From positions 48,116 to 112,115 of the forward strand of contig JAFQFV010000025.1 in assembly GCA_017398555.1 (NCBI GenBank): DNA of 64,000 nt, written 5' to 3'. Position 1 is the stretch's first letter, and every line of letters begins with the position of its first letter. The translations under genes were made by a program, and so were the position numbers. Shown one piece after another: positions 12,847 to 62,309 of the stretch. The notes beneath the pieces are model-generated. The model was given only the letters and a program-made list of their open reading frames with translations. It made no database searches and was not told the DNA's origin. This stretch comes from Alistipes sp. (GTDB taxonomy: Bacteria; Bacteroidota; Bacteroidia; Bacteroidales; Rikenellaceae).

Positions 12847-12855
12847 AATATTCAA

Positions 12856-13674
12856 TTAATCAAAAATGTCATTTAGCAATGCTGCAAGACGATAACCAGC
12901 CTTACAAATCTGCGACTGAGCGATAGGTGCATACTCATTAAAGTACAGTCGCTTATTAAACTTATCGCCCTCCTTAACCTGATGCACTTTACGCGTTGCC
13001 ACAACAGAGTCATAGCCCCAATCGTATGGAGTTCCCGCTGTAACCTCCGCAATTTGAGCCTTTGTATATGTATCAAACAGCTCTGCCGTATCAGAGTAGC
13101 CCCACGGGTTATGCGCCGCTATAATTTTAGAGTCCCACAAACTATGATAACGCACTCTATCCTTATCCAGATGGATATAGAAGTCGCCTGCTGTAGGGTC
13201 CTCCGGGCAACGTATATGCCCCGGACAGTGCATATCGCCCACGAAGTGTACTAACAGTGCGATTGAGGCAACACGCACAGAGTCCGACATATTATCGGCA
13301 TTAGCCTTAAGATCGTCAGCTATCTTCTCGACATAGTATATGCAATTTTTAACATACTCATCTCCCCTACGGATATCACGATATGGAGTACCGTCATCAT
13401 TGGTAACAAAGGTGTGAGGATAGGTGATAAATCGCTTGGCATTTGACGGCTCAAAGCCCAAATCAACAAGCAGCTCCGGCTTGCTATCGTCAGCATATGT
13501 TGCCCACTTGACGATTGACTCGCCGTGCATATACTTGGTAATCTGTTTTTTAGCCCTTTTTGTCAGATGATTCTCTGCAATCTTTGCTACGGTTGCATGT
13601 CCAATTCTACCCCATGCAGCTGCCGAGCCAACGGCCACGACTGCGACCATCAAAAGTGTAAATAGTCTTCTCAT
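12856..13674 (-). CDS. S1/P1-type zinc nuclease (copy A)
   Basis: A 272-residue exported nuclease, upstream twin of the gene at 12031. Signal peptide 1-20 (VGSAAA) leaves mature Trp21 (WGRIGH). All expected zinc ligands are present: WGRIGH, YADD, YPHTF, HFVGDMHCPGH and YHSLWD. The usual HFVGDxHQPLH motif reads HCPGH here and HCPEH in the neighbour, so both share the same unusual Cys. The two genes are tandem duplicates, probably co-transcribed; divergence is spread along the chain and strongest around residues 85-100 and 150-165. No clear promoter was found between 13675 and 13748, so transcription may come from the ZIP gene upstream. Confidence 0.9.
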   Translation of the reverse strand: MRRLFTLLMVAVVAVGSAAAWGRIGHATVAKIAENHLTKRAKKQITKYMHGESIVKWATYADDSKPELLVDLGFEPSNAKRFITYPHTFVTNDDGTPYRDIRRGDEYVKNCIYYVEKIADDLKANADNMSDSVRVASIALLVHFVGDMHCPGHIRCPEDPTAGDFYIHLDKDRVRYHSLWDSKIIAAHNPWGYSDTAELFDTYTKAQIAEVTAGTPYDWGYDSVVATRKVHQVKEGDKFNKRLYFNEYAPIAQSQICKAGYRLAALLNDIFD

Positions 13675-41204: not shown

Positions 41205-41498
41205 TGTTGGAATCGGAGTTTTTACTCTATTCATACATAATTTGAAAGTGTTTTCGCACTGTCCTTACGTGAAAATGTGGAAGTTTTCTAAGACAACGGG
41301 ACAACGAACAGCACTCATTTCTTGTGTAGTTATGTGTAGATACCACATACTATTCAAGTGTGGGGTATCGTAGTCGTTTATCGTTGTATAGGTCTTTCCA
41401 CAACCTTCACGTAGATAGTCGAGAGTCAACTCCACACTTTCTGTTTTTGTATCTACGCCACTGAGGAGTTGGGTGACGGGAAAAGACACACAAAAAAA

Positions 41499-43265
41499 AT
41501 GAGAAGAATCCTATTCTCGCTGTTTGTAACTCTGACTCTTTTGGTGTCATGTACAACCGATCATGAGTCAGCTGCCTCTAAGGAGACCGTAGATGTTACA
41601 TTTGCACTGGATGTTGATTGCATCCCTTCAACCCGAACTATTAGCGATGGTACGGGTGCCACACAGCTTATGTATGGCGTATTTAATGATGCCGGTGAGC
41701 TTATTATCGGCAAGGCTGTTAAGAATGATGTCACTTCGTTGCTTAGCGACGCCGGTTACACTATGGCAATTTCGTTGCCTAAGGGTCAGTCATACCAAGT
41801 AGTATTCTGGGCGCAGAATCCGAATTGTGATGCTTATACCGTATCGGATGATATGCAGCTGACAATCAACTATGAGGGTGTAAATAATGATGAGTCACGT
41901 GATGCCTTCTTTGGTGTTACCGAGATCTTCAAGGTTGAGGGTAACCGCACCGTAACTGTAGTGTTGAAGCGACCTTTTGCACAGGTTAATGTCGGTGCAT
42001 TCCCATTTGACTTGGAGCACGTTAAGGAGCTGGGTGTAGATATCGCAGCTTCATCTGCTACAATTCAGGGTGTTGCCAACCAGCTCAATATGCTTACAGG
42101 CGAGGCTACAGGCGAGGTTGAGGTAAATTACACTCTCAACGCTATCCCTACAGAGGATTTGTTGGTCGATGTAGATGAGGACGGCAATAGCGAGGTATAT
42201 TCATACCTCTCAATGTCATATCTGTTGGCATCTGCCTCAACAACAACACACGATATGGCCTTCGTATTCGCTGAGGCAGACGGTAGCTGTCCGGCCGATT
42301 TCAACAACGGTCTTGACTTTGTGCCTATTCAGCGAAATTGGCGTACAAATATCGTAGGTCAGATTCTTACAGGCGATATTGCATTCAATGTAAAGATTGA
42401 CCCTATCTACGAGGGTGAGACTATCAACTCCGGTGGCCTGTATTATAACTTCAGCGAGGATACACTGATCGAGGATAAGTATTTTGCATTTAATACTGCC
42501 GAGGCTGCAACATTCACCTCGGAGAATAATAACAAGCTCACCTTCAACAACGTAACATTCTCAGGTGCAGTACAATACATCGCCTTTGGCGACTACATCA
42601 AGAAGGATGGTAAGGTGGTTGTTCCTTTCGTAAATGAACTGAACAACGTTGTGGCAAAGGATATGATGATTACCCACTCAAAGGGTATCACCAATGTCGA
42701 GCCTATCGACTATATGGCTCCGCTTGTATTCTTACGTGGCGAGAGTGTAATCAACGATTGTGTATTCACAGGTGCATATTGCCGTCCAGACCTGCCTCTC
42801 TATCCGGATTATTGGGGAGATCTTCACGAGGTACTCCCATATGATTGCGGTGTGCCAAATGACGGTGTTGCAGTATTCAACAACTGTGAGATTTCGAGAA
42901 TGTATGCATGGAGCCATGTTAAGATAACTATCTTGAACAGCCATATTGAGTATATCCGTTGCAGCACCCACAACCAGACAATGAAAGACTCACATCTGAC
43001 AATCGGCGAGGGTTCTGTAATCGATACAATCTGTGTATCAAGCTCTTCTACAGCTAAGAGAATCAAGGACGAGAATGGTAAAACTCATTGGGATCCGAAT
43101 AATATGTGGTCTCCAAGCATTATCATCAAGGCTGGTGCTGAGGTAAAGTTGCTCGATATGAATGGTCGCAGCCGCTATGATAGTAACGGCAATCTTGACG
43201 TGATTATCGAGGATGGCGCCGTTGTTGGTGAGATTCTTAATGAGGGTCCTAACCCTACTTTGTAA
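41499..43265 (+). CDS. Fimbrillin-like (DUF6562 type) lipoprotein with beta-helix-like C-terminus, copy 1
   Basis: A 588-residue predicted lipoprotein (lipobox LLVSC, Cys18). Residues 30-310 follow the fimbrillin/DUF6562 pattern: VTFALDVD, TRTISDGTGATQLMYGVF, VVFWAQNPNCDAY, ESRDAFFGVTE, LKRPFAQVNVG and the linker ending VKIDPIYEGE. Arg46 precedes ISDGT at the place where type V pilins are cut after an arginine. Residues 320-588 instead carry short imperfect beta-helix turns (LTFNNVTFSGAV, VFNNCEISRMYAWSHVKI, VIIEDGAVVGEI), a layout more like an adhesin cap than a simple pilin. The ATG at 41499 gives a good signal; an upstream TTG at 41469 does not. First of five operon genes. Confidence 0.8.
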   Translation: MRRILFSLFVTLTLLVSCTTDHESAASKETVDVTFALDVDCIPSTRTISDGTGATQLMYGVFNDAGELIIGKAVKNDVTSLLSDAGYTMAISLPKGQSYQVVFWAQNPNCDAYTVSDDMQLTINYEGVNNDESRDAFFGVTEIFKVEGNRTVTVVLKRPFAQVNVGAFPFDLEHVKELGVDIAASSATIQGVANQLNMLTGEATGEVEVNYTLNAIPTEDLLVDVDEDGNSEVYSYLSMSYLLASASTTTHDMAFVFAEADGSCPADFNNGLDFVPIQRNWRTNIVGQILTGDIAFNVKIDPIYEGETINSGGLYYNFSEDTLIEDKYFAFNTAEAATFTSENNNKLTFNNVTFSGAVQYIAFGDYIKKDGKVVVPFVNELNNVVAKDMMITHSKGITNVEPIDYMAPLVFLRGESVINDCVFTGAYCRPDLPLYPDYWGDLHEVLPYDCGVPNDGVAVFNNCEISRMYAWSHVKITILNSHIEYIRCSTHNQTMKDSHLTIGEGSVIDTICVSSSSTAKRIKDENGKTHWDPNNMWSPSIIIKAGAEVKLLDMNGRSRYDSNGNLDVIIEDGAVVGEILNEGPNPTL

Positions 43266-43292: not shown

Positions 43293-45017
43293 ATGAGGTT
43301 TTTAACAAAATATCTCATAGCCCTTATTGGTATAGTGGCGGTGTCGTGTACCCAAGACAATATTACAGATTCGTCGTTGGGTGGCGGGCAGAGTGTTGCT
43401 ATCAACTTCGTGCTTAGCACCGAAGATGCTCAGAGCAACCCTACTCGCGCGATAAGTGACGGTACAAGCGTCAATCAGCTGTACTATGCCGTATATACCG
43501 AGAGTGGAGAGATAGTTATTCCTAAGGCACTTAAGCGCAATGCGACCGGCTTGGCATCGCCGAGTGGTCTGTCTATGACCATATCCCTGCCGTCAGGACG
43601 CAACTATAAGGCTGTGTTCTGGGCGCAGAGTAGCGATACCGAGGCTTACACGCTTACCGACGAGATGGTGGTAAGTGTAAACTACGCTTTGGCTTGCAAT
43701 GACGAGAAGCGTGATGCCTTCTATGGTGTCACCGAGCTCTTTGCCACCTCGAATGATAAGGTAGAGGTGACTCTCCATCGTCCATTTGCTCAGCTCAATG
43801 CCGGTGCATACCCATTTGATTGGGAGTATATCAAGGGCTTCCACAACTTCGATATTACAAAGTCGTGCGTGCGTGTTCGTGACGTTGCCCACACCCTCAA
43901 TCTGCTTACAGGCGAGCTATCAGACTATGGTAGTGCGTCATTTAAGCCGGGTGTGCTGCCTACGGAGTATTTAGAGGTAGATGTGGATGAGGATGGCGCA
44001 ACTGAGCAGTACGTCTATGTAGCTATGGCATATCTTTTAGCCGATGCAACACCTTCAACACACACTGCGGAGTTCTTCTTCCTCAACGGCGAGAATAAGG
44101 CTGTGATGTTCGAGAAAGAGACATATAACTATGTTCAGCTTCAGCGTAACTGCCGCACCGATTATGTAGGTCAGGTAGTTACCGACAACGGCGAGATAAA
44201 TATCCGCGACTATGTCGATGAGCCGAACACCGACTACGGATATGTCTATTTCAACTCCGAGGAGGATACCACCTTTGAGAATACAATCTACAACATGTCA
44301 AGCCACGAGACAGGACTCCAATTTGCGAGCGTTTCGGGTCAGACAAATACCTACAACAACCTGCTCTTTACGGGCGACATCTGGGTAATTGAGTTGGGAG
44401 AGTATCGCGGTGGTGGATATGTCAATTACAACAATGTGTTGAACAATGTTGAGCTTCGTAACCTCTCTGTATCATCGTGCATCGAGTGTCATGAGTGGTA
44501 CTTCTCGCCGGCGACAATCGCCTACGGCAAGACTACACTGAACAACTGCAAGATGACCGGTGCGACCACCATTCGCGACACTGTAACCGACAAACATGGT
44601 GTTGTACACAAGGTTATACCGTGCGATATCGGTGTGCGTAATGAGTCGGACGCTTGGTTCTATGGAGGTGTGTACGGAACAGTCTTCGCCTGGACACACG
44701 CAGTGGTAGAGTTGTATGATGTAACTATCGACACACTCTACTGCGGTACGTGTGACTCTACAAAGCACTCGTGGATGACCATTGGTGCCGGCACTACTAT
44801 CGATAAGGTTATCTGCTGCGAGCCTCGATGCCCGTATGGCGGCAAGGAGTACTCAACAACTATGACAATCAAGAAGGGTGCTAAAGTGGGCTCTTTGCAG
44901 CTTGTCTCTACAGATGTGGAGTTCTTGATTATCGAGGATGGAGCAACGGTAGGCCCTATCACCTGCGAGGGTGTAGAGTACACCTACCAAGAGTTAAGAG
45001 AGGCTATGGGCCTATAA
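43293..45017 (+). CDS. Fimbrillin-like (DUF6562 type) lipoprotein with beta-helix-like C-terminus, copy 2
   Basis: A 574-residue predicted lipoprotein (lipobox AVSC, Cys19), a clear paralogue of the gene before it along its whole length: NPTRAISDGTSVNQLYYAVY, AVFWAQSSDTEAYTLTDEM, KRDAFYGVTELF, LHRPFAQLNAGAYPFDWEY, then the beta-helix-like tail (YNNLLFTGDIWVIELGEY, TLNNCKMTGATTIRD, LIIEDGATVGPI). Arg52 precedes AISDGT. Both tails share Cys-rich turns (CGTCDS, CCEPRC here). Likely a pilus or surface-fibre subunit. Spacing from the previous gene is 27 bases. Confidence 0.8.
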   Translation: MRFLTKYLIALIGIVAVSCTQDNITDSSLGGGQSVAINFVLSTEDAQSNPTRAISDGTSVNQLYYAVYTESGEIVIPKALKRNATGLASPSGLSMTISLPSGRNYKAVFWAQSSDTEAYTLTDEMVVSVNYALACNDEKRDAFYGVTELFATSNDKVEVTLHRPFAQLNAGAYPFDWEYIKGFHNFDITKSCVRVRDVAHTLNLLTGELSDYGSASFKPGVLPTEYLEVDVDEDGATEQYVYVAMAYLLADATPSTHTAEFFFLNGENKAVMFEKETYNYVQLQRNCRTDYVGQVVTDNGEINIRDYVDEPNTDYGYVYFNSEEDTTFENTIYNMSSHETGLQFASVSGQTNTYNNLLFTGDIWVIELGEYRGGGYVNYNNVLNNVELRNLSVSSCIECHEWYFSPATIAYGKTTLNNCKMTGATTIRDTVTDKHGVVHKVIPCDIGVRNESDAWFYGGVYGTVFAWTHAVVELYDVTIDTLYCGTCDSTKHSWMTIGAGTTIDKVICCEPRCPYGGKEYSTTMTIKKGAKVGSLQLVSTDVEFLIIEDGATVGPITCEGVEYTYQELREAMGL

Positions 45018-45027
45018 ATTTACCGCT

Positions 45028-46317
45028 ATGCTTAGAGAATTAAAATATAGCATATTGATAGTCGTGACAGCGCTATTTGCAGTCCACGATCTATCGGCTC
45101 AACGCGTAGTGGAGCGACGCACAGAGAGTTCTGAGCTTAGGCGCGATCAGATGCACATCCGTTATCGTGTTGCCAAGTGGAATATCGACCCTCACTATAT
45201 GAATAACACCGATTCATTGGCCCATATAGTCGATTGGATTGATGGTGTGAAGCGCGATAGTACGGTTGAGCTTGTGAGCGTTGAGTTCTGCGGAGCTGTA
45301 TCGCCTGAGGGTAGTGTGAGATTTAACCGCTGGTTGAGTAATGCACGTCTTCAGACCCTTGAGAGATATGTCCGCTCGCGCATCAAGATTCCGGAGAATA
45401 TTATTGTGCGCAACGACCACTATATCGCTTGGAGCGAGCTGTACGATATGGTCGCAAAGTCGAACTATGCCAATAAGGAGGAGATTCTGGCAATTATCAG
45501 CAGCGAGAATCGCTCCAAAGGCGAGGTACTCGACAGCCGTATCGGAGATCTGAAGCGCTTGGATAATGGTATTACATGGCGTAAGCTGTTCCGCGACTAC
45601 TTTATCCACATGCGTAATGCCTATACCGTATTGGTAACAAAGAGAAAGATTGTCAATGTCGAGTATATGGAGCAGCAAGAGGGGCTACAAGTCAAGCCAC
45701 TCTCTTTCCCTGGTCCTCAGATGGATGTGACAGCGCCACACTTCACCTCACCTTTGGTGGAGGCTGTTGCGCAGGCAGAGCCTGAGAAGCGATACATGTA
45801 CGTTAAGACAAATGCCACAAGTTTAGCCCTTTTGCAGGCTAATATTGGCGTTGAGTTCGATATGGGACGCTACCTCTCGTTCTATCTCCCTGTCACATAT
45901 TCGGCATTAGACTACTTCTCCCCTACCGTGAAGTTCCGTACATTCGCTCTTCAACCGGAGTTGCGTGTATGGCCGCTAAAGAATCAGGACAAGCTCTTTA
46001 TCGGTGCTCACTTGGGCTTTGCTTACTACAATTACGCATTTAATGGCACCTATCGTTATCAGGACCGTGATGGTACCTCTCCAACACTCGGTGGAGGTCT
46101 TTCATTGGGCTATCGTCTGCCAATTAGCCGTAATAAGAATTGGAAATTGGAGTTCGCTTTGGGTGTAGGTGCATATCCTCTGGATTACGACCTATTCATC
46201 AACGAGGTCAATGGCCCGCTGCATGAGAGTCGTAAGAAGACCTATATCGGTCTGGATAATGCCCTTATCGGCATATCATACCGCATCCCAATAAAGACGG
46301 TACACCCCAAGAAGTAA
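45028..46317 (+). CDS. DUF3575-type outer membrane protein of a fimbrial operon
   Basis: A 429-residue exported protein (signal peptide ending LSAQ). Residues 35-215 resemble an OmpA-like/DUF3868-type periplasmic region with VELVSVEFCGAVSPEGS and NARLQTLERYVRSRIKIPE. Residues 240-429 form an outer-membrane barrel of DUF3575 type, with strands such as FRTFALQPELRVWPL, FIGAHLGFAYYNYAF and GGGLSLGYRLPI, ending YRIPIKTVHPKK. DUF3575 proteins recur in Bacteroidales fimbrial operons and probably anchor or export the fibre. It starts 10 bases after the previous gene. Confidence 0.75.
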   Translation: MLRELKYSILIVVTALFAVHDLSAQRVVERRTESSELRRDQMHIRYRVAKWNIDPHYMNNTDSLAHIVDWIDGVKRDSTVELVSVEFCGAVSPEGSVRFNRWLSNARLQTLERYVRSRIKIPENIIVRNDHYIAWSELYDMVAKSNYANKEEILAIISSENRSKGEVLDSRIGDLKRLDNGITWRKLFRDYFIHMRNAYTVLVTKRKIVNVEYMEQQEGLQVKPLSFPGPQMDVTAPHFTSPLVEAVAQAEPEKRYMYVKTNATSLALLQANIGVEFDMGRYLSFYLPVTYSALDYFSPTVKFRTFALQPELRVWPLKNQDKLFIGAHLGFAYYNYAFNGTYRYQDRDGTSPTLGGGLSLGYRLPISRNKNWKLEFALGVGAYPLDYDLFINEVNGPLHESRKKTYIGLDNALIGISYRIPIKTVHPKK

Positions 46318-47420: not shown

Positions 47421-48866
47421 ATGAAGAAGATTATTCTTTCAGTTGTTGCAGTTGCAGCATTGCTCGCAACTTCATGTCAGAATGAGGCAGAGGTTGCAAC
47501 AAACAGTAGTGAGTCTTTAGTTACTTTCGTAGTAGAGACTCCTGAGATTGGTACCCGTGTATTTGGTGATGGCACATCGGCTACTGACCTCTATTATGGT
47601 ATCTATGATGTTGATGGCAATCTGATCAGCGCTATCTCAAAGGTTGATGAGGCAGCAAAGGAGAGCATCAATATCTCAACTACAGTAAACCTTAACCTTG
47701 TTACAGGCAACACCTATAGCCTTATCTTCTGGGCTGACAATGCCGATGATGTATGCGAGGTTGATTTCGCTGCTAAAACTATGACATACAGCCCTGTTGC
47801 TGCTAATGCGGAGGCTTATGATGCATTCTGGGCTTATGTAGAGCCGTTCGTTGTTACAGGCAACCTGACAAAGACCGTATATCTCTATCGTCCTTTCGCT
47901 CAGCTCAACATTGGTACTGATGACATCGCTGCTGCAACCGCCGCAGGTATGACTGTCAGCGTATCGAAGATTTCGCTTACCACCCCTACAACTTTGAACC
48001 TTGTGGATGGTGCGGTATCTAATGATGTTGCGCTTGTTTATGACTACACTGCAATCCCTACAGGTGAGACATTCCCTGTTGCCGGTTATGAGTATTTGGC
48101 TATGAACTACCTGCTCATTGGCGCAGATAAGGCTACAGTAGATGTTAAGTTTGAGTATGGCAATGGCACTAACGAGTATGCTCAGGACTACACATTTGTA
48201 CCTGTTCAGCGTAACTATCGTACCAATATTATCGGTTCTCTGCTTACCAGCGCTGTAAATGTCAATATTATAATCGACCCTATCTTCGAGGAGCCTGATT
48301 ACAATGTATATGGTGCATTTCAGGTAGGTGGTGCGGCTACTCTTGCAGAGGATCTTGTAATCGACGAGCCACTTGTTGTTAAGGCTGGTGTAAATGCAGT
48401 TCTCAACCTCAACGGCAAGAGCATTACCAACAAGGTAGATAACACTGCTACCGATGCAATCATTGTTGAGGCTGGTGCTACACTTACTATCAATGGCGAG
48501 GGTACTATCGAGGCTGTTACAGGCAACGATGGATATGCTGTTATTGCTGATGGTGTAGTTATTATCAACGGTGGTACTTTCAAGGCGGGCGTAGATAGTG
48601 CCGGAGAGGCAAATGCAGTTGTCTATGTACGTGGCAATGGCGAGGCATACATCAATGGCGGAGTATTCCCTAACGAGAACAACAGCGCATTCGTACTCAA
48701 TAAGAAGGATGCAGACCGTGCGACTACTAAAATCGAGGTTCGCGGTGGTGAATTTACCGCATTCAACCCTGCAAACAACGCAGCTGAGGGTGCCGGTACA
48801 AACTTTGTAGCAGAGGGCTATAAGGTTGAGCAGAGTGGTGACGTTTATACTGTTGTTGCGCAGTAG
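47421..48866 (+). CDS. Fimbrillin-like (DUF6562 type) lipoprotein with beta-helix-like C-terminus, copy 3
   Basis: A 481-residue predicted lipoprotein (lipobox ATSC, Cys19). N-terminal fimbrillin pattern: EIGTRVFGDGTSATDLYYGI with Arg46, SLIFWADNADDV, YLYRPFAQLNIGTDD, VPVQRNYRTNIIGSLL. From about 300 the chain turns into a compact beta-helix typical of pectin-lyase-like folds (VVKAGVNAVLNLNGKSI, VEAGATLTINGEGTIEAV, VVIINGGTFKAG, AYINGGVFPNENN, IEVRGGEFTAFN). Its tail is more regular than those of copies 1 and 2. Likely the last-encoded fibre subunit or tip adhesin. A terminator follows 20 bases downstream. Confidence 0.82.
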   Translation: MKKIILSVVAVAALLATSCQNEAEVATNSSESLVTFVVETPEIGTRVFGDGTSATDLYYGIYDVDGNLISAISKVDEAAKESINISTTVNLNLVTGNTYSLIFWADNADDVCEVDFAAKTMTYSPVAANAEAYDAFWAYVEPFVVTGNLTKTVYLYRPFAQLNIGTDDIAAATAAGMTVSVSKISLTTPTTLNLVDGAVSNDVALVYDYTAIPTGETFPVAGYEYLAMNYLLIGADKATVDVKFEYGNGTNEYAQDYTFVPVQRNYRTNIIGSLLTSAVNVNIIIDPIFEEPDYNVYGAFQVGGAATLAEDLVIDEPLVVKAGVNAVLNLNGKSITNKVDNTATDAIIVEAGATLTINGEGTIEAVTGNDGYAVIADGVVIINGGTFKAGVDSAGEANAVVYVRGNGEAYINGGVFPNENNSAFVLNKKDADRATTKIEVRGGEFTAFNPANNAAEGAGTNFVAEGYKVEQSGDVYTVVAQ

Positions 48867-54359: not shown

Positions 54360-54420
54360 TTTAGACATCTGTATTTTGCTATACAGATTTTCATATCACA
54401 CGCTATCTTTCAGGAATACA

Positions 54421-54449
54421 AAAAAATAGCAGCTTTTCGCTGCTATTTT
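54421..54449 (-). terminator. Terminator of the DUF1501/DUF1549 operon
   Basis: AAAATAGCAGC/GCTGCTATTTT with a five-base loop, followed on the minus strand by a run of seven T. It begins five bases beyond the phosphoesterase stop codon. Confidence 0.92.
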
Positions 54450-54453
54450 CTTG

Positions 54454-55308
54454 TTACATATATCGCCATTCGTATTCTACCCCTCCATCAGATAGGGTAA
54501 TGAGCAGATATTCAGGCTTTTTTGCCTCATCGCGGATAGTCCCGACGACAGTATATCGCACCCCGCCGAGCGTCAAGTCCTCGCGGAAGTGGTCGTGACC
54601 CTGCAAGCAGAGGGTTACATTATATCTACTAAAGAGCTCAACAAGTGTATGGGTCTCCTCCATAGCCATATTGCCAGAGCTTGTCTGCGAATTATCGGTA
54701 TAGAAGAGGTTTGTATGGGTCAGCACGGTACAATGGCGGTAATTTTTACGGTTTGCTGCAAGAAAATCCTTCAGCCACCTCATCTGCTTACCACCCAGCG
54801 TACCACTTGCCGAATCCAAGGCGATAAACAGGTCACGTCCCGAGCCATAATCAACCTCAAACCAATATACCGACGGGCCTAAAAGCTCCCTAAAGTCATC
54901 CCAACCCGAAAAGAAGAGGTCATGATTGCCGATTATAGAGAACATCGGTTTATCCCCGTCGCTCTCTATCGCCTCAACGTAGGTCGCCATAGCATCGCGT
55001 CTATCGGTGCAGTCCCCAAGCACGATACCGAACGATGCGGCAGCATCTGTCTGCATCAGTTCCACAAAACTCTGCAAATTATCGTATGTATAGCCGATAT
55101 GAGGGTCTGCTGCAACATAGAACATATATGACTCTGTCGCCTCAACCGTAGCAATACTCTTTCCGCCATTTAGCGACATACTACTTTGAAAACGGCTATT
55201 CACAACATCGCCCGTAGGGGCCACTAACCCCCTAATATCGAGGGTATTACAGCCCGCAAAGAGCAGTGCAGCAACAGCTACCGCAAATTGTTTTACCATC
55301 TGTAACAT
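54454..55308 (-). CDS. Calcineurin-like metallophosphoesterase lipoprotein
   Basis: A 284-residue predicted lipoprotein (lipobox FAGC, Cys20). All five metallophosphoesterase motifs are intact: DPH in YVAADPHIGY, GDC in VLGDCTDRRD, GNHD in IIGNHDLFF, LTHTN, and QGHDH. It should hydrolyse a phosphomonoester or phosphodiester at the envelope; substrate unknown. Last gene of the six-gene operon; its start (ATG at 55308, or 55299) overlaps the end of the barrel gene, so translation is coupled. The terminator follows directly. Confidence 0.88.
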   Translation of the reverse strand: MLQMVKQFAVAVAALLFAGCNTLDIRGLVAPTGDVVNSRFQSSMSLNGGKSIATVEATESYMFYVAADPHIGYTYDNLQSFVELMQTDAAASFGIVLGDCTDRRDAMATYVEAIESDGDKPMFSIIGNHDLFFSGWDDFRELLGPSVYWFEVDYGSGRDLFIALDSASGTLGGKQMRWLKDFLAANRKNYRHCTVLTHTNLFYTDNSQTSSGNMAMEETHTLVELFSRYNVTLCLQGHDHFREDLTLGGVRYTVVGTIRDEAKKPEYLLITLSDGGVEYEWRYM

Positions 55309-55961
55309 ACCCCTACATTTCCATAGATTTGATAATAGTCGCTCGACAGGTTGAACATACCTGCAGGCTTATAATTTACCCCAAGCTGCACACCTAAACG
55401 CTCCAATGGATAGTACCACCCCTCAACGGCAAGGGATGGCTGATAGTGTCGCTCAAGCTCTAAAGCCTGACTATTCGAGAAGATAACATTCAAATCCCAA
55501 CGTTCCCGATTAGGCAGGCAATGCACAGCGAGCTTATAGTATATATTAAACGGCTCAAAGAGTCTATCCGCCGCCATTGTCATCACTCGGCAGTAGTAGC
55601 CAAGTGCCGCACTGATATACTTGGTATCAAGCAGCAGTCCGCAACCAAACGCATAGTTGCTCACCCTACTCTGATAGGCATAGTTAAAGAGTAGTTCCGC
55701 CGATAGTCTGCCGATATTAAAGTCGTGAAAATAGGCGGGTCGCACCTCTGCTGTCACCCTTGAAATGGTACTATACTGCACACCACCTCGCAGAGCAAAG
55801 TACTCTTTAGCAGAGTATTCCGCCTCCACAGCAAATGCAGAGAATGCTCCATACAGAGTACTCCCGCCACCCCTTATGCCGAGAGTCACCTCACCTTGCT
55901 GCGCCCGCGATGTCCCTATACCCACAAGAAGAGTAAATATTAGTGCAACTACCCTATTCAT
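55293..55961 (-). CDS. Predicted outer-membrane beta-barrel protein
   Basis: A 222-residue exported protein (signal peptide ending SRAQ) made almost wholly of amphipathic strands of about ten residues, e.g. EVTLGIRGGGSTLYG, YFALRGGVQYSTISRV, NYAFGCGLLLDTKY, LGVQLGVNYKPAG, with a C-terminal aromatic residue (VGVCYRW), as expected for a barrel of eight to ten strands. No named family recognised. Its start is two bases after the upstream stop and it overlaps the phosphoesterase gene. It may give the operon products an outer-membrane anchor or pore. Confidence 0.65.
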   Translation of the reverse strand: MNRVVALIFTLLVGIGTSRAQQGEVTLGIRGGGSTLYGAFSAFAVEAEYSAKEYFALRGGVQYSTISRVTAEVRPAYFHDFNIGRLSAELLFNYAYQSRVSNYAFGCGLLLDTKYISAALGYYCRVMTMAADRLFEPFNIYYKLAVHCLPNRERWDLNVIFSNSQALELERHYQPSLAVEGWYYPLERLGVQLGVNYKPAGMFNLSSDYYQIYGNVGVCYRW

Positions 55962-55963
55962 AA

Positions 55964-58048
55964 CTATCGTGTAAGTTTGATAACGAAGAATGGGGTTATC
56001 TCGCGGTACTTCGCATTTTGGAAGGTACGTTTACCCTGCTTTACAATCTCTCCCTTAACCGTACCAGCGATACTCATCTGCCAATAAGGGAGATTCTTGC
56101 GTCTCTTATACCTCTCCAACAGTTCGTGGTTGAGCCTGATATATATCACCTTCTCCTTCTCACCCGGAAGCAGTGTAATAGGTTCAAGCGAGAAGATTCT
56201 GTTCTTATTGCCCAAAATAAGTTCTACAGGGTCATCAAAGCCCGCATCCCTATCTATCTTTATCTTTATAGGGATTACCTCATCCTGCATTCTGACTGTC
56301 ACCTCCTGCTCCGTATCAAAGCCCAGCAACATACGATATGGCGAGGCATGGGTAACATCTACAGCCAGCTCTGCCGCCTGTATGTGGTGTGTGTAGTAGA
56401 ATGCCTGCATCATATTGTCCGCAGGCACAACATCCGCCTGCATAGGGCCATCAGGTGTCGAATACTCTATCTTTACCTCTATTGGGAAGCGCTCAATATC
56501 TGCACCCTTCGGAGCTGTAACAGAGACATTCCACTTTCTTGTGCCGCGAATCTTCAGGCTACTTGTTGTAAAGCCACTTGGCAGACCATCCACAATCAAA
56601 TCGACAGGCAGCTTAACCTTACCCTCTATATCGACGCGGAATGAGGAGGTACCACCTGCCGGAACGGTTATATTTGCAGGGGATACAAAGGCATTGAATG
56701 ACGGCATCTGCTTATGACGACGAAGCAGATAGTGGTAATCCTCGCCATATCCCTGATGCAAGTCCTCCACCTCAAGAATAAGTACCTCGGTTCGCTTTGG
56801 CTTATACTTAAGCACAGGGTCGGCATGGAAGGTCATAAGTCCCTGCATAGGATCCTCTGTATCATCAGCCTTGGCGACGACCTTTCCATACTGATCGCGC
56901 AAACGCATCACAGCATCTATTCTTGAGCCATTTCTGCGGCCTATCAGTTCGACAATAACAGGCTGTTTTGCCTCAGCGTAGAGTCTATAGCGCTTAATCT
57001 TCGCGTTCGATGTCAAAGAGTCCGATATAGCCGACGAGAAGGTAAGCAGAGCACCCTCCTTAGGGTTCTGAACGAGCTTGACACCCTTTGGCAGAGCGTA
57101 GAATGGTACTGCATTTGACGCGCCCTTACTATCGGTGTATATCAACTGATTATAACCCTCCTTTTTAACCTTTACCTTCGCCGTTGTCGCATCAAGATTA
57201 ACACCCGCAAGGCGCTGCTTTACGCTCTTGCCGACCGTACCATAAGCGGGATAACGGCCTGTAACAAAAGGGATTACGCCAAGATGTATGCGATAGTTGA
57301 AATCCTCGCGACCACGATAGATGGCATCGTGAATAAAGATGGTATAATTATCATCTTTCGGCAGCGTTGTGATAATTACAGGGTCCACGTTATGGTGGTA
57401 ATCATCCGAATATGCCACCTCACGTCCCTGCGAATCGACAATCTTCAACACAGGCTGAAACCAACCCGGCACAGCATCAGCGATATACGGCACAAGCTGG
57501 CGAGCCTTAACCGATGCCACGATAGTCTGCCCCTCACTACCTGAGAATGTAAAATAATCGACACCTCCCGGTGTAACATATCCACACAGCACAGCAGGGA
57601 GCGTCTTGACCTCATTCGGCTTTTTGAGCGACGACTTACCGTCCTCAACAAAGTTAGGATATGACGCCACCTCAAACGGAAGCATATTTGAAACACCGCT
57701 TGCACCCTGCAGACGCAAATCATACATACCACACGGCACATCTGCATCGATAGTAATACGTATCTTCACCCTATCGGCAAGCTGCGGGCTACTCTGGTCA
57801 TTGAGCCTTCTGCGCTTGCGCTTTGCCGCGGCACTCTCCTTGACAGGTGTAACTTCGCCCTTGATGCCGGGGTGGTTAAACAGCACCTTGGTCGCCTTAT
57901 TTATATTCAATCCACCACCCTCTATCTCAACGGTAGTACCCACCTCTCCACCTGCGGGATAGAGAAAACCGAGCGATAGCTTCTGTGCATATAGCGGAGT
58001 GGCTAACAGAAGGGATAGTATAAACAGTAGTACTCTTCTATTTTTCAT
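55964..58048 (-). CDS. Large exported PPC/TIG-like protein of planctomycete type
   Basis: A 694-residue exported protein (signal peptide ending YAQ). Residues 25-130 look like a TIG/IPT-type domain (LYPAGGEVGTTVEIEGGGL, VPCGMYDLRLQGASGVSN). Residues 145-255 resemble PPC (bacterial pre-peptidase C-terminal) domains (GGVDYFTFSGSEGQTIVASV, LPKDDNYTIFIHDA). The pair recurs downstream (VTGRYPAYGTVGKSV). The order and wording match proteins encoded beside DUF1501 and DUF1549 genes in Planctomycetes. A basic stretch KRKRRRL near residue 78 is odd for an exported chain. No catalytic motif seen; probably a binding or scaffold protein. Its start overlaps the DUF1501 gene by 11 bases. Confidence 0.7.
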   Translation of the reverse strand: MKNRRVLLFILSLLLATPLYAQKLSLGFLYPAGGEVGTTVEIEGGGLNINKATKVLFNHPGIKGEVTPVKESAAAKRKRRRLNDQSSPQLADRVKIRITIDADVPCGMYDLRLQGASGVSNMLPFEVASYPNFVEDGKSSLKKPNEVKTLPAVLCGYVTPGGVDYFTFSGSEGQTIVASVKARQLVPYIADAVPGWFQPVLKIVDSQGREVAYSDDYHHNVDPVIITTLPKDDNYTIFIHDAIYRGREDFNYRIHLGVIPFVTGRYPAYGTVGKSVKQRLAGVNLDATTAKVKVKKEGYNQLIYTDSKGASNAVPFYALPKGVKLVQNPKEGALLTFSSAISDSLTSNAKIKRYRLYAEAKQPVIVELIGRRNGSRIDAVMRLRDQYGKVVAKADDTEDPMQGLMTFHADPVLKYKPKRTEVLILEVEDLHQGYGEDYHYLLRRHKQMPSFNAFVSPANITVPAGGTSSFRVDIEGKVKLPVDLIVDGLPSGFTTSSLKIRGTRKWNVSVTAPKGADIERFPIEVKIEYSTPDGPMQADVVPADNMMQAFYYTHHIQAAELAVDVTHASPYRMLLGFDTEQEVTVRMQDEVIPIKIKIDRDAGFDDPVELILGNKNRIFSLEPITLLPGEKEKVIYIRLNHELLERYKRRKNLPYWQMSIAGTVKGEIVKQGKRTFQNAKYREITPFFVIKLTR

Positions 58049-59309
58049 GGCGCGGTGCTTTTATGTCAATAATTTCATAGAGAAGTCCGTTGCTCTTCTT
58101 CTCGTCGAGCAGCGACGGCAATATCGGCAACTCTCCCTCCGAAACGTGAGGCAGAGTGCCATACGGGTCTATTCCCATAAGCAGATAGACCGTTCCTATC
58201 AAATCACACGGGCTTACAGGTCGCTCTGCCACCTTTTCGCCTGTTTTATCACTCTTGCCGACCACCTTACCGCCGTGGAAACCTCCTCCGGCAACCAGAT
58301 AGCTGAACGCTGCGCCAAAGTGCGCACGGCCACCATTCCACGGAGCCTCCCACAGCACCTTTGGAGAGCGGCCAAACTCGCCACCACAGAGAACAATAGT
58401 ACTATCGAGTAGTCCACGTGCATCCAAATCTGCAAGAAGCGCAGAGAGTGCCCTATCCAAATCAGGAAGCATAGTATTCATCTTCTGGAAGTGCTTTTTA
58501 TGGGTATCCCAACCCGTTGTACGGACATTGACAAATGGAACACCCGCCTCAACAAGGCGTCTTGCAACAAGGCACGACTGACCAAGGCGCGACTTGCCAT
58601 ATCGCGCTCTAACAGAGTCCGGCTCGGTGCTGAGATTGAAAATCTCTCTGGTATCACCCCAGATAAACTCCATATTCACATCGCGCAGAGAGTCAAGCGT
58701 CTGCTTGGCCATCGGCTTATTCTCAAACTTATCAAGCAGAGCAACCCTTTGATCCATCCTCTTACGATCGACAGACCTATTTACCACGCCCTCGACCTCG
58801 TACTCTTCAGCCTCAGGCTTGCCGCCCGTATCGAAAGATTTGTACTCATTGCCTAAAAAACCGCCCTCATTGAAACGGCTGTTTGCACTCGTTACAGAGA
58901 TATAGCTCGGCAAAATACCCTTATAACTATCTCTCTTCATATACGATATTACCGCGCCAAACGATGGATAGACAACAGCGCCACCCGAAGTGTCGCCCGT
59001 AATCATTGCGTAGTGTCCCGTCTCGTGGGCGTTACTGCCGTGTGTAAGGCTGCGAATGAGGGTATATTTATCCGCCATAGATGCAAGCAGAGGCAGTTTC
59101 TCGCCAATCTCAATGCCCTCGACATTGGTCTTGCACACACCACTATAGCTACCGTGGTAGTTTCTACCCATCTCCGGCTTGGGGTCAAATGTATCTGTCT
59201 GCGCAGGGCCACCATCCAAATAGACCAAAATCACAGACTTTGCCCTCTGTGCATCGGCAGCAAAACAGATGGCAAGCAGCAGCGTTAATGTAAGATATAT
59301 CCTTCTCAT
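58038..59309 (-). CDS. DUF1501-family exported protein (alkaline-phosphatase-like fold)
   Basis: A 423-residue exported protein with a Sec-type signal (ending AADAQ); many family members elsewhere use Tat. Family marks: VILVYLDGGPAQTDTFDPKPE at 26-46, LTHGSNAHETGHYAMITGD, YGKSRLGQSCLVARRLVEAG, TTGWDTHKKHF, LCGGEFGRSPKV and GGGFHGGKVVGKSD. DUF1501 proteins are related to sulfatases and alkaline phosphatases by fold and conserve metal-site Asp/His residues, but their reaction is not established. In Planctomycetes they are encoded next to DUF1549/DUF1553 proteins, as here. Confidence 0.9.
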   Translation of the reverse strand: MRRIYLTLTLLLAICFAADAQRAKSVILVYLDGGPAQTDTFDPKPEMGRNYHGSYSGVCKTNVEGIEIGEKLPLLASMADKYTLIRSLTHGSNAHETGHYAMITGDTSGGAVVYPSFGAVISYMKRDSYKGILPSYISVTSANSRFNEGGFLGNEYKSFDTGGKPEAEEYEVEGVVNRSVDRKRMDQRVALLDKFENKPMAKQTLDSLRDVNMEFIWGDTREIFNLSTEPDSVRARYGKSRLGQSCLVARRLVEAGVPFVNVRTTGWDTHKKHFQKMNTMLPDLDRALSALLADLDARGLLDSTIVLCGGEFGRSPKVLWEAPWNGGRAHFGAAFSYLVAGGGFHGGKVVGKSDKTGEKVAERPVSPCDLIGTVYLLMGIDPYGTLPHVSEGELPILPSLLDEKKSNGLLYEIIDIKAPRHEK

Positions 59310-59320
59310 ACTATTACCTC

Positions 59321-60733
59321 TTAGTGGTTATAAAGAAACTCGTTGCTGTTTATCTGCATCCACATTATATCAACAGCAACATCCATCAAAGACAGCTCGG
59401 TCTGCTCCATATACTCTTTATAGAGCTCTTTCTCCGCAGCTGTAGCCCTTCGAGAGAGGGTCAGCAGGGTTATCTTATCTGCAATCTGCTCCAAAGAGCC
59501 ACTATTGACATATATTCTCTGCAAAACAGGACTCTTGCGAATACGGCGTTCCAGAACAGAGGAGTTCATCAAATAGAGCAGCTGTCGGGATGTAATGGAG
59601 TTATTTCTCTGGCTCTCCAACGAGACATCACGCGACACCTTTCCAAAGAGCTCCAACTCTGACGAGGATACTGTCGCATCGCCTAAATGTGTAGCCCTTG
59701 TCTTTGGCGGATAGAATGTAAACGGCTCCGGCACGCGACTGCTATATGTGCTCCAAACGCCTGTAACAGAGGCTATTGCATCGACAATTACCTCGGCAGG
59801 CAACCTCTGCGGCACATATCCACCCTCAGGTGCCATCTTGGCGTTAAACTGCTCCGAGAGCAAAATTTTCTTCATCAACGCCCTCATATCGAAGTTATGC
59901 TCAAGGAAGTAGTCTGTCAGTTCGCCAAGCAGTTCGGGGTCTGATGGTTTATTGGAGGCTGACCAATCATCCGGCTCATGGACAATGCCTCGACCGAAGA
60001 CCCAATACCACATTCTATTTACCATAACCTCGGCAAAACGCCTATTTTTGCTCGACGTGAGCCACGAAACATACCCCTCTCGCCAATCGCTATCTGCACG
60101 CAGCTTGATAATAGTATAGTCCTCCAGCTCAATATCCTGATACGGGACCTTTTTGTGAATATCGAGATAGACAATCTCCTCCTTCCACTCCTTGGTCGAT
60201 TTGAACTTTATCTGCGAGAAGCATATATGCCCATTATCGGTACAATTTCTATTGCCGAGGAAGAGCAGATTGATGTTGGCATAGAAGTTTTTGGCACTCT
60301 TATTCTGAAAACCTCGATAGAAGTTTGCTGCAGGTGCACGGAAGTTACTTCCAGACGAGAGCAGCAGACCTCTGACCATCTTGTCATAGGGCACATTGTG
60401 GAGCAGTTGCTCGTATATCCATCTGTTATAGGCCTGCACACCATTGGGCCACAAGTTGCTCGGGAACTCCGACTTTATACGCAGGATATCGCCCCAACGC
60501 ATCTGCATATACTTAAGTCCCAACTCACTCTCAAGCAGTTGGTCGATAAGCACCTCGCGTTTATTCGGATTGCTCTCATCAAGAAACTCTACGCACTGAT
60601 TCGGCGTCGGCAGAGCACCCGTTACCGTAAGATAGGCCCTTCGCAGAAAGACCTCATCCGTGCATCTGTCCGAAGCTGTTGCCTGCATTGCGGAGAATAA
60701 CAGGCAGACAATAAACATCAGAATAGCTCTCAT
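59321..60733 (-). CDS. DUF1549/DUF1553-family exported protein
   Basis: A 470-residue exported protein (signal peptide ending QATAS). The N-terminal half is DUF1549-like (FLRRAYLTVTGALPTPNQ, RWGDILRI, YNRWIYEQLLHNVPYDKMV, RGFQNKSAKNF, FLGNRNCTDNGH with a Cys-His element). The C-terminal half is DUF1553-like (RRFAEVMVNRMWYWVFGRGI, HEPDDWSASNKPSDPELL, QRLPAEVIVDAIASVTGVW, RQLLYLMNSS). The usual planctomycete protein is longer and often carries a cytochrome-c-like domain with CxxCH; none is present here, so this is a shortened version. Function of the family unknown. It starts 11 bases upstream of the DUF1501 gene. Confidence 0.9.
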   Translation of the reverse strand: MRAILMFIVCLLFSAMQATASDRCTDEVFLRRAYLTVTGALPTPNQCVEFLDESNPNKREVLIDQLLESELGLKYMQMRWGDILRIKSEFPSNLWPNGVQAYNRWIYEQLLHNVPYDKMVRGLLLSSGSNFRAPAANFYRGFQNKSAKNFYANINLLFLGNRNCTDNGHICFSQIKFKSTKEWKEEIVYLDIHKKVPYQDIELEDYTIIKLRADSDWREGYVSWLTSSKNRRFAEVMVNRMWYWVFGRGIVHEPDDWSASNKPSDPELLGELTDYFLEHNFDMRALMKKILLSEQFNAKMAPEGGYVPQRLPAEVIVDAIASVTGVWSTYSSRVPEPFTFYPPKTRATHLGDATVSSSELELFGKVSRDVSLESQRNNSITSRQLLYLMNSSVLERRIRKSPVLQRIYVNSGSLEQIADKITLLTLSRRATAAEKELYKEYMEQTELSLMDVAVDIMWMQINSNEFLYNH

Positions 60734-60734
60734 A

Positions 60735-61847
60735 TTATTGTGATATTAAAATTCCCTCTATCTCGACCAAAAGTTCGGCACGGCACACATCCGCAATGGT
60801 ATATACCACAGATAGCTGCGGATATGCCTGCTCTACCACCTGTTTTACCTGCTGATAATCCTCGGCATACTTTACAAACACCTGCAACTGAGCATACTTC
60901 AGTTCATACGGCTGGCAGCCATACCGCACCAGATTCTCTTTGGATACAAGGTGCTCGATATTCTCGATGGTCTTAATAGTCTGTTCTCTTACCGATGAGG
61001 CATCCACGCTCTGCTCACCTCTGATTGCTGCCGTGCCAGAGACAAAGCAGACTGCCCCGCGATTGGTCTGAATAACCTTTGCTCGCTCAAACTTCGGAGT
61101 GCTCTTCATCGCATCTGCCGCACTATCAATCAACACACGCTCCGAGTAGATGTGTGCCGCCACTTGCAGTGGATTATCAATGGCAAAGATGGCTCTTGCT
61201 GCCGACTTGAAGGCTATACAGCCGACAATTATACCCTCACCCGACGCACCTATACCCGTAGCTGCTGGGTAGCCATTCTGCCACTGCCCCTTTGCGTAGT
61301 ATCGGGTACGCGCATCGTTAAACTCCTGATAGTTTTGTTTGCCATCTCTGCACGAGACAATGTTGCCGATGTAATTCCATTGGCGCACAATATCATCGAC
61401 AGCAAAGCCGTGCATAGTCAATATTTCATCTAACTTACTAAAAACCTCTTCGCTCTGCTGGCAGACACTATTCGTAAAATCTGATGCAGGAATACCCTCT
61501 ATAAAGAGCAAAGACTCCTCGCCGCCACGAATTGCACCATAGCAGACTCCGTTTTGCTCACCTATTTCGATTGTAGTATCACCATCAAGAGTATAAATAT
61601 CGAGCGACAGACCGCCATTTGGCAGCAGATATTGAGGGATGAGGGTTACAGGCACTTGTCGCCCTAACAAGCGATAAACTGCGACCTTAAGAGTACTAAG
61701 GAGCTGACTATACTCCATAGAGCTATCTACTCCGCAGAATACCATGCCGCAGATTCTATCCACCTGAAGGCCCTCAAGAGAGTTCTTGATCTCTTCCGAA
61801 CAGGTTTTAGTCCGTCCAAGTGTCGAAGAGTAGATCTTTAATCCCAT
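60735..61847 (-). CDS. Chorismatase (FkbO/Hyg5)/RidA-like protein
   Basis: A 370-residue protein with no signal peptide, so cytoplasmic. The middle carries the chorismatase-type pattern: RQWNYIGNIVS, NYQEFNDARTRYYAKG, GYPAATGIGASGE and IVGCIAFKS. The C-terminal 100 residues read like a RidA/YjgF fold. FkbO and Hyg5 hydrolyse chorismate to dihydroxy- or hydroxybenzoates; many relatives in Bacteroidetes have no assigned substrate. It is first in an operon of envelope proteins, one base before the DUF1549 gene, which is unexpected. It may make or modify a small aromatic compound, but that is inference. Confidence 0.75.
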   Translation of the reverse strand: MGLKIYSSTLGRTKTCSEEIKNSLEGLQVDRICGMVFCGVDSSMEYSQLLSTLKVAVYRLLGRQVPVTLIPQYLLPNGGLSLDIYTLDGDTTIEIGEQNGVCYGAIRGGEESLLFIEGIPASDFTNSVCQQSEEVFSKLDEILTMHGFAVDDIVRQWNYIGNIVSCRDGKQNYQEFNDARTRYYAKGQWQNGYPAATGIGASGEGIIVGCIAFKSAARAIFAIDNPLQVAAHIYSERVLIDSAADAMKSTPKFERAKVIQTNRGAVCFVSGTAAIRGEQSVDASSVREQTIKTIENIEHLVSKENLVRYGCQPYELKYAQLQVFVKYAEDYQQVKQVVEQAYPQLSVVYTIADVCRAELLVEIEGILISQ

Positions 61848-61874
61848 AAGTCAAAGGTTAGTCTTATTATAGGA

Positions 61875-61906
61875 TAAAGTTACGGATAAAAAGTTAAATT
61901 GGCAAA
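61875..61906 (-). promoter_or_regulatory. Promoter of the DUF1501/DUF1549 operon
   Basis: On the minus strand TTTG (61906-61903) and TAACTTTA (61882-61875; one mismatch to TAnnTTTG) are 20 bases apart. Start site near 61868, leader about 20 bases. Confidence 0.55.
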
Positions 61907-62253
61907 TTATTTTTTCTCATAAGATTCAAGTGGTGGCAGAAGCCGAGAGCAGACCGAGCATAGGTGGGACAATCGCAGATTGTTTGGGTTTGGCTAACGA
62001 TATCTGAAAATCTATTTTCGGGATAATCGTTAGACAAAGACAAGTGATTGCTTTAGCAATGCCTCCTTGCGAAGAGTAGTCTGCCGAGGCGCAACAAACT
62101 GAACGAATTCCCTATCCACGAAAAAGAAAAGCAGTCAATTTCTTTGAAATGGGATTGGCTACTTCGCAAGCATAGCTTGCTCCGTAACGCCTTTCCCCTC
62201 CGCTCGCCACGGGGGCCTAAACAAAGAAAGTCAGCTAAAGGGCTATGCCCTAT

Positions 62254-62309
62254 TTGTTTTAGAGCATCTACTGCTGCAAATAAATTTGCGCATAGATGCT
62301 CTAAAACAA
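62254..62309. repeat. Perfect 17-base inverted repeat with nested hairpin
   Basis: TTGTTTTAGAGCATCTA (62254-62270) and its exact complement (62293-62309) enclose a loop that itself folds as GCAAAT AA ATTTGC (62276-62289). It lies just beyond the tRNA-Glu terminator. It could be a second terminator, a structured RNA or a recombination site. Confidence 0.8.

Follow-up and report, generated by a model that had tools for sequence, protein, structure and literature searches.

Why does a planctomycete-type PSCyt2/PSD1-DUF1501 gene pair lie in a Bacteroidales genome directly behind a gene for a chorismatase-like enzyme, and what might that enzyme supply to exported proteins? The locus in question is on the minus strand of a 64,000-nucleotide stretch of DNA from Alistipes sp. 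(contig JAFQFV010000025.1, positions 48,116 to 112,115; the whole stretch is called the window here). Planctomycetes and their relatives have PSD1, PSCyt2 and DUF1501 proteins in large numbers, and we know of no biochemistry for any of these proteins. The first four genes of the locus, G1-G4, are inherited as a unit (quartet) in Bacteroidales; this unit is a haem-free, chorismatase-bearing variant of the already known PSCyt2/PSD1-DUF1501 module, and that form is what is new here. The explanation that we tentatively prefer, with a probability of roughly 0.4, is that this haem-free variant is coupled to a cytosolic hydroxybenzoate-forming enzyme. An earlier note on this DNA had instead described a complete six-gene system. 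The six open reading frames (ORFs) and the terminator behind them are:

60735..61847, minus strand: G1, chorismatase of the FkbO/Hyg5 superfamily, 370 aa, with an FkbO_Hyg5-like N-domain and a C-terminal Rid fold
59321..60733, minus strand: G2, exported PSCyt2(DUF1549)-PSD1(DUF1553) protein, 470 aa, a short form without PSCyt1
58038..59309, minus strand: G3, exported DUF1501 protein (Pfam), 423 aa
55964..58048, minus strand: G4, exported PPC-like protein (PPC match under the curated cut-off), 694 aa
55293..55961, minus strand: G5, exported 222-aa protein, possible barrel (unconfirmed), member of a separate G5-G6 pair
54454..55308, minus strand: G6, metallophosphoesterase with a lipobox, 284 aa, member of the separate G5-G6 pair
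54418..54454, minus strand: intrinsic terminator immediately 3' of G6, hairpin and T run, -22.4 kcal/mol, z=-8.2

The ORFs lie where the earlier note had placed them, with gaps of 1 (G1-G2), 11 (G2-G3) and 2 bases (G4-G5) and overlaps of 11 (G3-G4) and 16 bases (G5-G6), and the single terminator that it had named is a strong hairpin followed by a T run. Its DUF1549/DUF1553 and DUF1501 assignments are borne out by Pfam: G2 matches PSD1/DUF1553 (E=2.8e-34, 119.1 bits, curated cut-off 28.5) and PSCyt2/DUF1549 (E=2.4e-21, 77.1 bits, curated cut-off 29.8), and G3, 11 bases away, matches DUF1501 (E=3.6e-86, 290 bits), which supports a planctomycete-type core of these families inside a Bacteroidales genome. 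G1 matches FkbO_Hyg5-like_N (E=6.5e-13) and Ribonuc_L-PSP (E=3.7e-11). The gene called PPC-like holds its place as the fourth gene of the quartet, with a PPC domain match of 16.4 bits that falls under the curated cut-off of 25.9. G5 has no Pfam or NCBIfam match, which leaves the name outer membrane barrel unsupported. In a simple script-based scan for hydropathy and lipoboxes, Sec-like hydrophobic N-termini lacking a lipobox are seen in G2-G5 (in G2 with an AxA site), G6 shows a lipobox, and G1 shows neither.

The quartet recurs. PSD1 was found in 16 of the 200 genomes searched as a family-level sample (the window's own, 13 of the same genus and two of a second genus, g19), and the order chorismatase-PSD1-DUF1501-PPC is present at 13/13 of the other same-genus PSD1 loci; the contig of genome G196 ends within the PPC gene of its quartet. 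Spacings in these loci, taken between profile hits, are -4 to 22, 10 to 19 and -11 to 4 bases (1, 11 and -11 in the window). Genome G018 of g19 has its chorismatase gene at the far end, 3' of PPC, and in G036, also of g19, the genes are divided over two contig ends, one with PSD1-DUF1501 and the other with PPC-chorismatase. Three genomes beyond the window's have PSD1 in an order-level sample of 393: G257 and G395 have the same four-gene order as the window, and G263 (locus L037) has PSD1, DUF1501 and PPC with the chorismatase missing from the locus. When named genomes were scanned with a profile of the chorismatase, 556 places were confirmed and the best 80 of them kept. The four-gene order stands at 17 of these best 80 of 556, in records labelled Alistipes, Rikenellaceae, Paludibacter, Bacteroidales and Bacteroidetes; PPC is cut by the locus end in three (L089, L093, L100), and six of the 17 PSD1 proteins are identical to ones from the earlier samples. 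L145, with no G1 match among its ORFs, was excluded from the quartet/non-quartet counts. The quartet is also present in at least two further Bacteroidales families. Across 23 loci, pairwise identity of G1 correlates with that of G2-G4 at 0.94-0.97, although the many close same-genus rows will account for much of this. The link between the chorismatase and the exported trio (G2-G4), a coupling that the earlier note had proposed, is well supported. No published report of a chorismatase paired with PSD1/DUF1501 was found in the literature searched, many subscription articles being outside its scope. In L082 (11156-12514) a stop that falls between profile positions 166 and 169 interrupts the PSD1 frame, a possible pseudogene or assembly error.

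The last two genes are a separate matter. With tblastn, G5 and G6 gave no match at any of the 13 same-genus quartet loci, two of which are short (the sequence of L021 stops within PPC, that of L031 about 850 bases past it); in the neighbourhood comparison that the earlier note had proposed, the six-gene order was not seen again. Strong matches (E<1e-50) to G5 and to G6 are present in only 3/100 other genus genomes each. The pair occurs in G146, a genome without PSD1 in the family search, and in G198 on contig C7, with the quartet on C15. Thus, G5-G6 are a two-gene pair placed behind the four-gene unit in the window genome, and the six-gene unit was rejected. The phosphoesterase of the earlier note is upheld as to its family (Metallophos, E=1.3e-10) and lipobox, but not as an integral part of the unit.

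The Bacteroidales form also differs in its haem site. The window's G2 has neither PSCyt1 nor CxxCH, the CxxCH stretch of PSCyt2 being deleted, in agreement with the claim that this protein lacks a cytochrome domain. For comparison, 20 regions (20 genomes) were picked for spread from the many haem-type PSD1 places of Bacteroidota outside Bacteroidales, together with two plasmid loci (two of five plasmid records; one Bacteroidota, one Pseudomonadota), and mostly 13 kb was read per locus. The PSD1 protein carries one or two CxxCH in 22/22 and DUF1501 adjoins it in 22/22; the open frames are long (619-1288 residues, versus 470 aa in the window), and a chorismatase or G4-type protein is present in 0/22 of the stretches read. 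CxxCH is absent from 28 of 29 near-full-length Bacteroidales PSD1 rows, the window's included (L082 was left out for its split frame). A common 16-column gap opposite the CARCH stretch of L037 is seen in 27 of these 28, L036 has a 9-column gap, and L037 is the only one of the 29 that keeps CxxCH. The window's protein, which had been taken for a minimal core, is more plausibly a derived form that has been stripped of its haem site.

Haem and chorismatase exclude each other among the loci found through PSD1. Chorismatase is present in 18 haem-less genomes (in G036 by contig-end inference), and adjoins none of the 23 haem-bearing loci (the 22 comparison loci and L037). The phylum-level PSD1 and chorismatase searches were taken, judging by the genome handles, to cover the same 395 genomes; in this sample 48 other PSD1 genomes gave no full-length match to the chorismatase profile (A1), with weak partial matches in G706 and G921, and a second profile (A2) showed weak Rid-part matches also in G891 and G856.

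The PSD1 tree was made from 51 of 52 distinct rows, without L082. In this tree, the 29 Bacteroidales rows are a single clade (99/99), L036 and L037 are sisters (99/94), and the haem label needs two changes. L036 and L037 are also nearest to each other by identity in DUF1501 (G3) and in the PPC-like protein (G4). Of these sisters, L036 has chorismatase and no haem, whereas L037 has haem and no chorismatase. The chorismatase tree comprised 83 rows, without six near-copy quartets (L084, L086, L087, L089, L093, L100), and a careful tree was made from 42 hand-picked rows of the 83. On the 42-row tree the quartet label needs three changes, and the quartets form one group in 0% of 200 bootstrap trees. 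The approximately unbiased (AU) test rejects a single clade of all quartet chorismatases (p=3e-5), and also a clade of the main group with L036 (p=4e-4). The exported trio was inherited together, and the chorismatase gene joined it at least two times, once in a lineage whose sister keeps haem.

Profile comparison groups G1 with Hyg5 (5ag3) and FkbO (4bps). The catalytic glutamate (Hyg5 E334) and the CH-II residues (Nat-hyg5 G164, G231 and C318) are named in the available part of PMC7170507; with a numbering shift of 9 between Nat-hyg5 and Hyg5, derived from E325/E334, Hyg5 G173, G240, C327 and E334 align with the conserved window residues G198, G271, C355 and E362. FkbO carries Ala at the Cys327 and Gly240 positions. 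G1 reaches 144.1 bits with NCBIfam TIGR04444, under the cut-off of 325. Bacteroidota rows differ from both Hyg5 and FkbO by R148->Q in 96 and A219->E in 95 of 96 rows (Q174 and E254 in the window), and position 148 varies in other homologues too. The Hyg5-type signature would fit a hydroxybenzoate-forming enzyme, with 3-hydroxybenzoate (3-HBA) suggested by the residues and 4-hydroxybenzoate (4-HBA) or a mixture possible; according to the portion of PMC3949708 at hand, product type is unpredictable from alignment alone. Chorismate synthase is present in 13/13 genomes tested.

Related chorismatases are found in other contexts. A profile search of 180 same-genus genomes gave matches in 57; matches of the quartet class (E<=1e-138) number 31, the window's own included. 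This class takes in all 13 PSD1-positive genus genomes and no further genome with a handle up to G199. Matches of a second class have E of about 1e-90 to 1e-107, and at the four loci inspected (L251-L254) the chorismatase lies in 4/4 between two proteins with two CxxCH each, which resemble YncE/CCP_MauG-like and HZS_alpha/FGE proteins (by BLAST clusters, with Pfam on L251 only). The second operon is seen more widely in Bacteroidota (L069, L121, L151, L152, L161, L251-L254 and others), often as IclR - YncE/CCP_MauG dihaem protein - chorismatase - 230-aa protein - HZS_alpha/FGE and partly with CcsA, DhaK, DhaL and LsrF genes; plasmids carry it as well, one of Parabacteroides distasonis and two of Aureibacter. 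Within the same subscription limit, no literature linking three or more of hydrazine synthase, chorismatase, YncE, Bacteroides and c-type cytochrome was found. Among the 62 non-quartet loci from the best 80 of 556, a same-strand CxxCH ORF of at least 150 aa stands within three ORFs of the chorismatase in 32 and is missing in 30. Counted by ORF, CxxCH is present in 47/224 near and 12/228 far (odds ratio 4.8, Fisher p=5e-7, indicative only as the loci are related), with 0 near the chorismatase in the 17 quartets. Thus, exported systems, many of them haem-bearing, are a recurrent neighbour of the chorismatase, and the quartet is a haem-free form.

A third class is represented by L255, where the chorismatase is directly upstream of genes reading, by sequence, as prephenate dehydratase, aminotransferase, prephenate dehydrogenase and DAHP synthase; the other third-class locus fetched, L256, has no chorismatase ORF in its listing, probably hidden by the ORF picker. 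On the Acidiphilium plasmid pACMV3 (L164, NC_015179.1 36271-47134), SCP2 and two U32 peptidase genes, one of them annotated for ubiquinone biosynthesis, precede a homologue with 26% identity, which is followed by pdxS/pdxT. Read as UbiT/UbiU/UbiV, the SCP2/U32 genes would fit a supply of 4-HBA, with the homologue a candidate source for oxygen-independent ubiquinone synthesis. Both contexts, the aromatic amino-acid-like genes of L255 and the ubiquinone-annotated gene on the plasmid, are counted as support for the preferred explanation. Genes like those of L255 were also recognised by eye in G137 (L022 1694-7463), about 300 bases 3' of the quartet on the same strand. Other neighbours include a short protein (with a tRNA_SAD domain in L137) and/or an Hsp20-like protein near the chorismatase in L137, L138, L140, L144 and similar loci. 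Distant chorismatase/Rid proteins are near PD40 propellers in L074, L075, L076 and L255, and a closer one in L244; L075 and L076 also have DUF6057. Several of these propellers share a 'PDYAGVTIPxNIAPLNF'-type N-terminus, and some carry CxxCH.

The trio itself offers fewer clues. Compared with solved structures, DUF1501 finds sulfatases and LtaS at E=0.03 or weaker, which is not significant, and kinship with the alkaline phosphatase/sulfatase superfamily is possible at the sequence level; PSD1 has no match among solved structures at E<=1. DUF1800 matches at E<=0.01 are present in 12/26 PSD1 rows (best 3.6e-6), and so DUF1800 may be the counterpart of PSD1. The accessible part of PMC5122149 describes a DUF1800-DUF1501 pair beside bacterial chitin synthases. 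In that of PMC5615132, PSCyt/PSD genes of Verrucomicrobia lie near sulfatases and occur with carbohydrate-binding modules, and this source and PMC4452313, as far as available, are in line with an abundance of PSD1, PSCyt2 and DUF1501 in planctomycetes and relatives. A glycan-related envelope role is our best guess for the trio.

In the preferred explanation, G1 would act in the cytosol on chorismate to give pyruvate and a hydroxybenzoate (3-HBA by signature, or possibly 4-HBA or a mixture), and G2-G3-G4 would form a complex in the envelope whose probable target, reached through the DUF1501 protein, is a glycan or a glycan-linked ester. The small-molecule partner (ligand, donor or substrate) of this complex would be the hydroxybenzoate, in place of the c-type haem chemistry of its relatives. 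Support comes from the recurrence of the quartet, the coincidence of quartet-class chorismatase and PSD1 within the genus, the mutual exclusion of haem and chorismatase, the separate acquisitions, the L036/L037 contrast, the kept active site and the presence of chorismate synthase. The role of the aromatic is the weakest step.

Several points weigh against this explanation. The coincidence of haem loss and chorismatase gain rests on two or three events, many same-genus rows are near-copies, and label counts do not tell whether a gene was gained, lost or displaced. A clade of the main group and g19 passes the AU test (p=0.055) and both have the same gap, so these may be one event; one haem loss with regain in L037 is formally still admissible. 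G263, with the haem form at L037, has a chorismatase elsewhere in its genome. Because the second-context chorismatases coexist with c-haem proteins, also within the same genus, the general rule that chorismatase simply replaces haem was rejected. PF01578 is unmatched in 3/11 haem-less genomes (G091, G018, G036) and matched in 6/6 others tested, so the loss of cytochrome assembly may play a part in some of them; as the full cause of haem loss it was rejected, since PF01578 is matched in 8/11 haem-less genomes, the window's included. The patterns RQWNY and CRxELLVEIE were used to fetch loci, so that part of the conservation at these sites follows from the selection itself. Beside the quartets no aromatic-acid-using gene was recognised by eye, without a family search on the neighbours.

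Part of the same evidence can be read otherwise. G1 may have changed its substrate and hydrolyse an enol-ether or enol/imine product of the exported machine, for instance a keto-sugar or unsaturated sugar derivative, once the cell has imported it, a doubtful but possible alternative with which the Bacteroidota-wide substitutions unlike Hyg5 and FkbO, the DhaK, DhaL and LsrF-type sugar-phosphate genes of part of the second-context loci and the sulfatase and carbohydrate-binding surroundings in Verrucomicrobia (PMC5615132, in the part available) agree; however, the positions named for Hyg5-type chorismatases are kept, position 148 is variable in other homologues also, and some homologues adjoin aromatic-pathway-like genes. 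The missing PF01578 match in 3/11 haem-less genomes, against 6/6 matched among the others tested, favours a reading in which haem loss reflects mere life without cytochrome c maturation, the chorismatase being an unrelated neighbour kept by operon inertia. This is unlikely given the matches in 8/11 haem-less genomes, acquisition in at least two lineages, the different chorismatase position in g19, and the four same-genus genomes that encode CxxCH proteins beside their own second-class chorismatase.

Two further alternatives have little in their favour. XanB2/ArcB-type chorismatases feed aryl-polyene or resorcinol envelope pigments (PMC3949708, from the part consulted), and G1 might likewise give a 3-hydroxybenzoate starter with the trio as pigment-handling complex; this is very unlikely, as no ketosynthase, ligase or glycosyltransferase was recognised among the neighbours, judged by eye with no family or genome-wide search made. 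A six-gene envelope system with G5 and G6 integral is hardly credible: the 2-base gap, the 16-base overlap and the single terminator favour it, but the 13 relatives' quartet loci (L021 and L031 showing little beyond PPC), the rarity of the pair and its separate placement in G146 and G198 do not. A defence system was rejected, there being no match to the PADLOC-DB anti-phage models at E<=0.01 for any of the six proteins. On the minus strand no sigma-70 site was found in 61848-62300 by a scan whose models exclude Bacteroidetes promoters.

Elsewhere in the window, three related lipoprotein-like ORFs cluster together (41469-43265, 43293-45017, 47421-48866), and the 429-aa ORF among them (45028-46317) clusters with proteins near the quartets in L023, L028 and L030. 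Adjacent related ORFs of 274 and 272 aa (12031-13674) are tandem duplicates.

A short haem-free form, linked to an enzyme whose small-molecule product can be predicted, is a tractable entry into this large uncharacterised family, and a first chemical handle on it. It could reveal the kind of compound that PSD1/PSCyt2/DUF1501 proteins handle, and the L036/L037 pair is a natural experiment pointing to the change to look for. A bolder version is that Bacteroidales repeatedly made an exported haem-c machine haem-free by means of a cytosolic chorismatase, the phenolic acid taking over the function of covalent haem (redox mediator or prosthetic ligand) and serving as mediator for the YncE/MauG-HZS_alpha systems too. 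We regard this as quite unlikely; if true, exported machines of this class would generally have chorismate-derived small molecules as partners.

Among known systems, the haem-bearing Bacteroidota PSCyt1-PSCyt2-PSD1 + DUF1501 module has the same PSCyt2 and PSD1 in one exported protein with DUF1501 adjoining, whereas the window's version is shorter, lacks PSCyt1 and CxxCH, and adds a chorismatase and a PPC-like partner. With the FkbO/Hyg5 chorismatases (CH-I to CH-IV) G1 shares the fold, by profile, and the Hyg5-type Glu/Gly/Cys positions. Unlike that family it falls below the NCBIfam cut-off, has the substitutions shared across Bacteroidota, and has genes for exported proteins, not a natural-product cluster, around it. 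DUF1800-DUF1501 pairs have the DUF1501 partner in common with the quartet, and the part of PMC5122149 available names no chorismatase or PPC-like partner for them. The YncE/CCP_MauG-chorismatase-HZS_alpha/FGE operon, which the same genus has as well, places a related chorismatase between large exported proteins; it differs from the quartet in that the exported partners have other Pfam domains and the CxxCH motifs are kept.

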